Shown here one piece after another: positions 25,865 to 39,503 of a DNA stretch of 40,018 bases. Numbering within the stretch: the first letter of the stretch is position 1; each line of letters begins with the position of its first letter. The stretch spans positions 1 through 40,018 of the forward strand of contig JAFUYM010000006.1 of the NCBI GenBank assembly GCA_017470525.1. The letters are read 5' to 3'. This stretch comes from Bacteroidaceae bacterium. Lineage in GTDB: Bacteria > Bacteroidota > Bacteroidia > Bacteroidales > Bacteroidaceae. The notes beneath the pieces were generated by a model. The model was not told the DNA's origin, did not search any database, and worked only from the letters and a program-made list of their open reading frames with translations. The translations under genes and the position numbers were made by a program.

Positions 25865-25935
25865 CCACCGAATCAGTAAACTCAAGAATCTATAGTTGTG
25901 CGCCACTTCTTTTAGTGACCGTTCGCAACCTCCGA

Positions 25936-26019
25936 TTCATACCATGAATTGTAAAATTCAAATAAGGAATTATGAAATTCATAGTATGAATTGTACAATC
26001 CAAAGAATGGATTAGAGGT
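25936..26019. repeat. two 42-bp imperfect direct repeats with internal dyads
   Basis: Units 25936-25977 and 25978-26019 agree at about 30 of their first 37 bases. Each contains ATGAATTGTA followed by a near-complement, so each can act as a dyad. A further pair, CACT/AGTG, lies just upstream near 25908. They are candidate operators for the divergent AraC-family regulator. Confidence 0.5.
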
Positions 26020-37565: not shown

Positions 37566-38933
37566 TTATGACCGTTTGGGGTTAAAAAGTCCAACCAATT
37601 CCTCTGCCGTCACCATTTGCTGTTCGCCCGTCGTCATGTTCTTCAGGTTAATCTTCTGCTCAGCCAATTCGTTCTCGCCCACGATGGCAACAAACGGAAT
37701 CCCCTTCGCGTTTGCATAACTCATCTGCTTCTTCATCTTTGCCGCATCAGGATAAATCTCCGCGCGGACACCTGCAGCACGTACCTTCTTCAGTACTTGC
37801 AGGCAGAAATCAGCCTCTGCCTCGCCAAAGTTCACAAACAGCAACTGAGTGGCGTTCACTGCCTCCTTCGGATAGAGGTCGAGTTGGTTCAACACGTCGA
37901 AAATGCGGTCAGCGCCAAACGAAATGCCCACACCGCTCAGCCCTGGCATGCCGAAGATGCCCGTCAAGTTGTCGTAGCGACCACCACCCGTGATGGAGCC
38001 AATCTGCACGTCCAGTGCCTTCACCTCGAAGATGGCACCCGTATAATAGTTCAAGCCACGAGCCAGTGTCAAATCCAGTTCGATTTCGTTGTTCAAGTCC
38101 GTCAGTTTCGAGAGGATATACTCCGTTTCCTCCACACCCTTCAAGCCCACTTCACTCCCCTTCAGCACCTCCTTCATCGTTGCCAACTTTTCAGCATTCG
38201 TGCCGCTCAGGTTGATAATCGGCTGCAACTTCTCAATCGCCTCCGCAGGGATGCCATCCTCTGCCAGTTCAGCGTTCACAGCCTCCAAGCCAATCTTGTC
38301 CAGTTTGTCAATTGTCACGGTGATATCGACAATCTTGTCCGCCTGACCAATCATCTCCGCAATGCCCGTGAGAATCTTGCGGTTGTTGATTTTGATGCAC
38401 ACACGCACCCCGAACCTCGTGAATACCGTATCGACAATCTGCATCAACTCCACCTCGTTCAGCAGTGAGTCACTGCCCACCACATCGGCATCACATTGGT
38501 AGAACTCCCTGTATCTGCCCTTCTGTGGACGGTCAGCCCTCCACACAGGCTGAATCTGGTAACGCTTGAACGGCAATGCCAGTTCCTCTCGGTGCTGCAC
38601 CACATATCTGGCAAACGGCACCGTCAGGTCATACCTCAAGCCCTTCTCGCAGAACTTTGCTGCCAACTTCAGGGTGCTCGTGTTCGCCACCTCGTCCGCC
38701 GTCATGCCGTGCAGGAAGTCGCCTGAGTTCAGAATCTTGAAGAGCAACTTGTCGCCCTCCTCACCATACTTGCCCATCAGTGTCGAAAGATTCTCCATTG
38801 CAGGAGTCTCAATCTGCTGGAAACCATACAAGGCATACACTCCCTTGATGGTGCCAAAAATATAGTTACGCTTCGCCATCTCCACAGGCGAAAAGTCACG
38901 TGTTCCCTTTGGAATGCTTGGTTTCTGTGCCAT
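37566..38933 (-). CDS. hisS: histidyl-tRNA synthetase
   Basis: This is 455 residues from ATG at 38933 ([16 protein letters not shown]); the frame is open 53 codons further but those lie upstream of the promoter. It charges tRNA-His. Class II motifs are visible: KGTRDF at the N-terminus, motif 2 near [20 protein letters not shown], the histidine motif [14 protein letters not shown], and [10 protein letters not shown]. The C-terminal anticodon-binding domain follows. Length is normal for the family. Confidence 0.95.
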
Positions 38934-39049: not shown

Positions 39050-39240
39050 TCAGGCGAACGGAGTTCGGAGTCTCGGAACAAATTATCGTCAATTATTGGT
39101 AATTATCGTTTATCTTGCGCCGCAGCGCAAGAGCCACCAGAACTTTTTGCTCCTTCGCCGCCAAGGCGACTTGGAAAAACGATAATTGGCTACGCCGAGC
39201 TAAAGGTTGCCGATAATTGCCGATAATTATTCTTACGATA
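39050..39240. repeat. palindromic intergenic element E3 built from 10-bp words
   Basis: Units AATTATCGTC, AATTATTGGT and AATTATCGTT begin at 39081, 39091 and 39101. Inverted units CGATAATTGG (39180), CGATAATTGC (39211) and CGATAATTAT (39221) mirror them. Between are GC hairpins CTTGCG/CGCAAG (39114-39131) and CGCCGCCAAGGCG near 39156-39168. The plan is that of E1 and E2 with different words. Confidence 0.65.
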
Positions 39241-39308
39241 GTTGAGTAAATCAATGGAATGAAGCAGTTTCCAGTTCTGTTGATGATAGACAACATCACA
39301 CAAAATCT

Positions 39309-39321
39309 GTTTACAGTAAAC
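39309..39321. promoter_or_regulatory. dyad GTTTAC-A-GTAAAC, possible operator
   Basis: A perfect 6-bp dyad with one central base. A second weaker dyad, GTTTA/TAAAC, follows at about 39338-39351. No gene start is close, so a regulatory role is uncertain. Confidence 0.3.
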
Positions 39322-39365
39322 AAAAACATGCGCATTGTGTTTAAAACTAAACATACAGAACAGAC

Positions 39366-39503
39366 TGCACGTCGTGGACTGCAATGACTGCACGTCGTGA
39401 ATGTGAAAGACTGCACGTCGTCGTCTTGTTGCTGTGCACGTCGTGGATCTTTCATCATGTGTGCCGTATTATTTCCGTTGTGCACGTCAGCACCAGTATG
39501 CCC
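39366..39503. repeat. 23-bp-period repeat array A (TGCACGTCGT core), six units
   Basis: Exact TGCACGTCGT cores start at 39366, 39389, 39412 and 39435; a degraded core (TGTGTGCCGT) is at 39458 and TGCACGTCAG at 39481. All steps are exactly 23 bp. The 13 bases between cores are unrelated. The core holds the dyad CACG-T-CGTG. Confidence 0.85.

Follow-up and report, generated by a model that had tools for sequence, protein, structure and literature searches.

What is the nature of a row of short, evenly spaced, symmetrical motifs that lies between two genes in the genome of a member of the Bacteroidaceae (GenBank assembly GCA_017470525.1), and how did this row come to be where it is? The row is located near the end of the window, as we denote the whole stretch of DNA that was analysed here (40,018 nucleotides; contig JAFUYM010000006.1, positions 1 to 40,018, forward strand). 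A previous sequence-only reading of this window described the row as six 23-bp steps with a conserved dyad core and unrelated spacers, reminiscent of protein-binding sites and possibly of an iteron, a partition site or a recombination site. Here we ask which parts of this description hold and what kind of element would account for them.

The array in the window

The motif TGCACGTCGT is found exactly at positions 39366, 39389, 39412 and 39435 and is followed by degraded cores at 39458 and 39481 (6 and 8 of the 10 letters matching, respectively, compared to all 10 in each of the first four), with every step equal to 23 bp. The four exact cores in 40 kb are to be compared with a mean of 0.06 and a maximum of 2 in 100 dinucleotide shuffles. 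When the match is summed over six steps of 23 bp, 54 of the 60 core letters agree, against a maximum of 33 in 200 shuffles of 2-bp blocks and 30 of 60 at the next-best position of the window. The evenly spaced motifs are real, far beyond chance, and the six steps with a dyad core are present as originally described (Table 1).

Table 1. Coordinates of the array, its leader and the adjacent genes in the window, and positions of palindrome triplets in related genomes
Feature	Position	Strand	Remark
hisS, histidyl-tRNA synthetase	37566..38933	-	Pfam tRNA-synt_His, 117 bits; oriented with its 5' end to the leader
Leader, two TGTTTA-n-TAAACA dyads (39308-39322 and 39338-39353), 30 bp apart	39304..39358	+	common to eight copies in the own genome
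Unit 1, GACTGCACGTCGTG + spacer GACTGCAAT	39363..39385	+	identical in C16 and C82, including the spacer
Unit 2, spacer AATGTGAAA	39386..39408	+	spacer homologues AATATGAAA (C16), GATGTGAAA (C82)
Unit 3, spacer GTCTTGTTG	39409..39431	+	spacer homologues GACTTGTTA (C16), GACTTGTTG (C82)
Unit 4	39432..39454	+	core exact, left edge variable
Unit 5, core degraded (6/10)	39455..39477	+	distal counterparts: C16 unit 5, C82 unit 7
Unit 6, core partly degraded (8/10)	39478..39500	+	
C-terminal fragment, lectin/glucanase-like, cut by the contig end	39576..40016	-	weak Pfam match below cut-off; 3' end faces the array
Triplets of other letters in relatives	L100:195, L103:1287, L117:3607, L120:1284, L159:18645, L162:3131		
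Triplets of other letters in relatives (continued)	L163:7862, L164:10197, L169:5871, L175:13472, L176:7403		

So which part of the unit is symmetrical? Across 27 units from four copies of the array (see below), the 23-bp unit is most symmetrical about the proposed CACG-T-CGTG dyad, with 106 of 216 pairs matching, compared to a mean of 50 pairs (sd 15.6) over the 46 possible centres. The centre falls on the T of CACGTCGTG, and the pairs match at distances 1-4 and 6, with 0, 2 and 9 of the 27 units matching at distances 5, 7 and 8, respectively. Folded as single-stranded DNA, the array is no better than shuffles (z -0.86), and a hairpin-forming unit, by which REP/BIME elements are recognised, was not found in it; the leader, folded in the same manner, gives z -0.31. 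Among six pairs considered for a conserved RNA structure of the leader, none is changed on both sides, and a search of eight sources for known RNA families at the gathering score returned only a tRNA and a 16S fragment. Given that conservation is centred on the dyad and that the array does not fold above shuffles, protein sites in double-stranded DNA fit better than hairpins. The likening of the array to a row of protein-binding sites is borne out in this respect, and its putative protein-binding role is likely.

Copies elsewhere in the genome

The array is not a solitary feature of the window. BLAST searches with the array region and with a 74-nt leader consensus identified six related places in the same genome, and sequence models added two more; the remaining, weaker BLAST matches are either fragments within the same six places or have E above 0.2. 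The leader is present in at least eight copies (all at E <= 5.8e-14; of the 15 matches at E <= 1, the remaining seven start at 0.0077), all copy numbers in this genome being lower bounds because the assembly is 83% complete. In five of these copies, which belong to five different contigs (C76, the contig of the window, C16, C82, C22 and C1) and are intergenic, the leader precedes an array of the window type (hereinafter array A), with 6, 7, 7, 1 and 7 units counted, respectively, the last unit being weak in C16 and C1. The copy with a single unit, in C22, has its leader within a long hairpin, between convergent genes. The leader in C58 precedes a palindrome triplet of what we denote family B (see below), and those in C46 and C23 precede a third dyad, ACTTTCAATTTTGA, repeated at a 40-bp step.

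The portion common to all eight leaders spans roughly positions -10 to +42 relative to the leader anchor. From this anchor, the centre of the first dyad is 56, 56, 55, 56 and 56 bp away in the five A copies, 60 bp in the B copy, and 69.5 and 68.5 bp in the two copies with the third dyad. The four multi-unit A copies each keep a single unbroken 23-bp register, and the similarity to the window copy reaches 86% identity over 159 bp in C16 and 87% over 132 bp in C82. Past the last units, nothing common to the A copies was found at E 0.05. In a search for terminal inverted repeats, the best pair of 12-mers matched at 9 of 12 positions in all four copies tested, a score equalled by 46-56 of 60 shuffles, and inspection by eye of the genes next to the copies revealed no recognisable transposase. 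We conclude that leader and 23-bp units together make up a real element, a species-specific, non-coding, intergenic dispersed repeat that apparently has not been described.

Growth of the array

The sequence-only reading had the spacers as unrelated. Within the window copy the claim holds, the similarity among its spacers being no greater than in shuffles (p 0.355). Across copies it does not: the units of sister copies align in order, and the spacers of the 28 units of five copies carry 2.6 bits, compared to a mean of 0.36 and a largest value of 1.09 in shuffles. Within-copy similarity of spacers is also detectable in C82 (reached by 0 of 1000 shuffles), C16 (p 0.018) and C1 (p 0.015), and in C82 the neighbouring units 2 and 3 share one and the same spacer. 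Because the spacers are homologous across copies, the units must have multiplied by tandem duplication. Simple slippage had been considered a poor match on account of the conserved core; the conservation of the dyad core stands, yet it was duplication of whole units that built the array.

The seemingly unrelated spacers are accordingly parts of entire 23-bp bricks that were copied and have aged. The part centred on the dyad decays slowest: in 12 pairs of homologous units, 9 of 168 letters differ in the core and 18 of 108 in the spacer, rates that are an indication and not a test since the pairs were chosen by hand and are not independent.

Distribution among relatives

Two TGCACGTC at a distance of 23 bp were found in the own genome only among 61 genomes (this one and 60 relatives). 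Likewise, ACGTCGTG at the 23-bp step occurs in one of the 393 genomes of the order, again the own genome, at nine places, in a search for the exact pattern that diverged arrays elsewhere would escape; one of the nine places (C16:19632) sits in a palindrome triplet and not in an A array. Of the adverse outcome that had been envisaged, namely a core found only at this spot and absent or scrambled in relatives, one half did not materialise, given that the core array occurs at other places of the own genome, and the other half did, none of the 392 further genomes searched in the order having the pattern.

The leader consensus matched at E <= 1e-4 in one of the 45 genomes of the genus, the own one. 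With the leader model at E <= 0.1, matches were obtained in four of the 45; the three in the other 44 genomes are weak (best E 6e-4, in G018) and are probably due to chance, a judgement made because no array was seen after them with the stricter filters in force. In other species, a search of the genome_contigs set with the leader pattern gave 14 matches, which were provisionally judged to be either chance or a repeat of a Treponema MAG. Seven of the 14 come from this one MAG (L084, L086, L087, L091, L094, L095, L096), which suggests a dispersed repeat of its own.

The hisS gene, matched in 41 of the 45 genus genomes, offers a fixed point for comparison. At the loci from the 30 best matches, which cover 29 of 40 relatives, the similarity beside hisS stops at most 195 bases into a query starting at 38801, well short of the array, and in G020, the nearest relative with a hisS locus (96% identical), the intergenic stretch at this place is unrelated to that in the window. 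In the literature, a description of the array or of triple palindromes at a fixed step was not found, the leads being the BrickBuilt and REP papers considered below; in those parts of the literature that are open to text search, one of the core strings matched in three papers, all of them Drosophila work.

Palindrome triplets of the genus

The palindrome triplets deserve consideration in their own right. The sequence GGACTGGAGCAGTCC is present in 39 exact copies in the own genome, in one copy each in two relatives (G007 and G020), and in none of the other 58 genomes searched. Family B occupies 35 loci in the own genome, 34 of them triplets of a palindrome of about 17 bp (CGGACTGGAGCAGTCCG-like) and one a pair, and all 69 steps measure 23 bp; C58:72037-72099 (L027:8038-8100) may serve as an example. 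The four copies of family B that were folded form a strong nested hairpin and look like REP elements or bidirectional terminators. Among six triplet sequences of three letter types, the fold z ranges from -5.1 to -11.2; in most of these folds the two outer palindromes pair and enclose the middle one. By a rough ORF rule, 41 triplet sites are located between tandem (16), convergent (11) or divergent (7) genes, with 7 undetermined.

Triplets of other letters occur both in the own genome (CGACCACGTCGTGGTCG in C16 and a related one in C1) and in relatives (Table 1), where 400 kb from seven genomes of the genus yielded seven, located in four of these genomes, and the 29 loci flanking hisS (123 kb) yielded four; the steps measure 21-24 bp. 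At 80% identity, 14 triplets fall into nine letter types, of which four are found in at least two species when the core of family B is counted; the three types recurring among the 14 are shared by the own genome and G035, by G020 and G013, and by G013 and G034, and the other types were seen in a single species each. With types held in common, the letters are not simply exchanged for new ones in each species. No triplet was found in 80 kb of four family members from other genera or in 233 kb of 16 members of the order, sets that are smaller than those of the genus, nor in one block-shuffled version per set; the control of the first scan consisted of letter shuffles at a single width. The array in the window does not pass the triplet scan (three similar palindromes with at most 1-2 mismatched pairs each, at an equal step), and still its unit has a dyad centre. 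It is conceivable, if doubtful, that the genus keeps intergenic elements of fixed geometry, typically three palindromes at a 21-24-bp step with widely varying letters, and that the window array is an elongated, leader-linked member of this class. If so, either some machinery reads spacing and symmetry over letters, or the letters turn over fast under a constant architecture, and the question arises of what reads a dyad step of about 23 bp despite such varied letters.

Gene neighbourhood

The array had been described as lying downstream of a glycoside hydrolase gene, an assignment that is weakly supported: the fragment in question, of 146 aa, matches lectin/glucanase and 3-keto-disaccharide hydrolase families, both below the cut-offs. 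In seven of the eight copies, an ORF that reads outward has its 5' end toward the leader side, the exception being C22 (p 0.035 for a fair coin, the ORFs being mechanical and the pattern noticed post hoc). The motif TAnnTTTG, which we take to be the -7 element of the phylum, reads outward from the leader side within 450 bp in six of the eight copies, and past the end of the array, reading away, in four of the eight, both counts being made without a control; in the window copy, 337 bp separate the leader from the nearest such motif on the hisS side. Orientation and motif positions hint at a regulatory position. Gene content and -7 motifs also suggest a Prevotella-like member of the Bacteroidales.

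Other repeats are present in the same window. Beside the leader, at 39091-39218, lies a different dispersed repeat with hairpin-like stretches, of which C58 has a copy (88% identity, 139 bp) and C31 another (87%, 121 bp); positions 1323-1536 hold a cassette of ACTTTCAATTTTGAAACAT dyads at a 19-bp step, with a copy in C68 (95% over 215 bp); and at 25928-26013 there is an array of GAATTGTACAATTC-like dyads at a 21-bp step, to which stretches in C12 and, in G020, upstream of hisS are related.

Possible explanations

How could all these observations be accommodated? We consider it probable that the element is a species-specific dispersed repeat similar to BrickBuilt, with bricks that serve as sites of a dimeric DNA-binding protein. 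The copies would have spread as a non-autonomous element, in a MITE-like manner as for BrickBuilt, and bricks would be gained and lost via unequal recombination. The dyad may be kept because a dimeric DNA-binding protein occupies adjacent bricks, which follow each other at slightly more than two helical turns, and the element could perhaps act as a regulatory site that the leader separates from the outward-reading gene.

The conservation centred on the dyad would equally be expected of a non-mobile regulon, that is, operator arrays for a single transcription factor or several, copied along with duplicated promoter regions. Such duplication is suggested by C46 and C23, in which the leader and the third-type array are alike over 225 bp (89%) with the TAnnTTTG motif in both, and by the similar cassette at 1323-1536 with its C68 copy. 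We nevertheless view a regulon as unlikely: the neighbours (hisS, HEPN-like, susC, recF, secreted GH-like and transporter genes, recognised by eye except for hisS) have no obvious common function, one copy lies between convergent genes, and the motif toward hisS is remote from the leader in the window copy. A neutral, functionless minisatellite spread through gene conversion or recombination would be compatible with the variable number of units, the distal decay and the absence from relatives. The core letters, however, change about three times less than the spacer letters in the 12 chosen homologous pairs, and the distance from the leader to the first dyad is kept in the A copies, which renders this possibility very unlikely. 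Least credible of all is an iteron, partition or recombination site, as originally proposed. Direct dyad repeats at about two helical turns are what one would look for in such a site, but the five A copies are dispersed over five contigs among ordinary-looking genes. Plasmid and phage searches at the default E-value gave no match, viral contigs gave 0 matches to the leader and array patterns, and inspection of the neighbours by eye revealed no gene for replication initiation.

More intricate is the case that the array is related, in decayed form, to the REP/BIME-like palindromic elements known from the genus and was moved by a REP-associated tyrosine transposase. The step of 23 bp is equal to that of family B, the triplet palindrome in C16 has CACGTCGTG at its heart, an A-like core, GACTGTACGTCGTGGAC, directly adjoins a family B triplet at C43:5598-5640 (L134), a family B triplet comes after the leader copy in C58, and the genome has one Y1/REP-transposase-like gene. 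Against this, the window array neither passes the triplet scan nor folds; the transposase-like gene scores 36.6 in NCBIfam against a cut-off of 80; and within 1.0-1.2 kb on either side of it there is no array, the lone A-core match having 2 of 11 letters wrong. We therefore regard this origin as quite unlikely. As for the REP transposase as a driver, it was rejected as a candidate, with no array beside the gene and no second copy of the gene in the loci examined, PF01797 being the sole transposase family searched. The gene itself (G000:C72:24917-25897; L082:1027-2007) has two hairpin-like stretches, seen by eye, near its 3' end.

Comparison with known systems

Operator arrays of dimeric transcription factors also present dyad cores on a fixed helical step. 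Compared to these, copies of the window type are dispersed and species-specific, with neighbour genes that have no obvious common function. REP/BIME repeats are short palindromes, intergenic and regularly spaced (PMC3733652; further sources for comparison are PMC6006769 on REP and the MITE review PMC10969869). Unlike these, the window array has neither a strong hairpin nor an adjoining REP-transposase gene, and the family B triplets of the own genome come closer.

The nearest parallel is BrickBuilt of P. gingivalis, which consists of imperfect tandem 23-nt bricks with one half less conserved, preceded by a leader of up to 285 nt, in intergenic and species-limited copies, with a tail and IS5-like terminal inverted repeats (PMC4596501). 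Leader and tail parts are described in 11 of 19 copies and both inverted ends as intact in 4 of 19, and it is the tail and the inverted ends that define BrickBuilt as a MITE (PMC4596501). By that account, the window element shares with BrickBuilt the imperfect 23-nt tandem, the leader, the multiple intergenic, species-limited copies and the variable number of units. It differs from BrickBuilt so described in its leader of about 55 bp, in that a search for a tail and for inverted ends came up empty, and in that one leader also precedes two other dyad arrays; the likeness is one of plan. Because the tail and inverted ends by which that source characterises BrickBuilt were sought and not found, we do not file the element as a BrickBuilt member. 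It would instead represent, beside BrickBuilt, a second case of a leader followed by arrays of 23-bp bricks, and one in which a single leader stands before three different dyad arrays.
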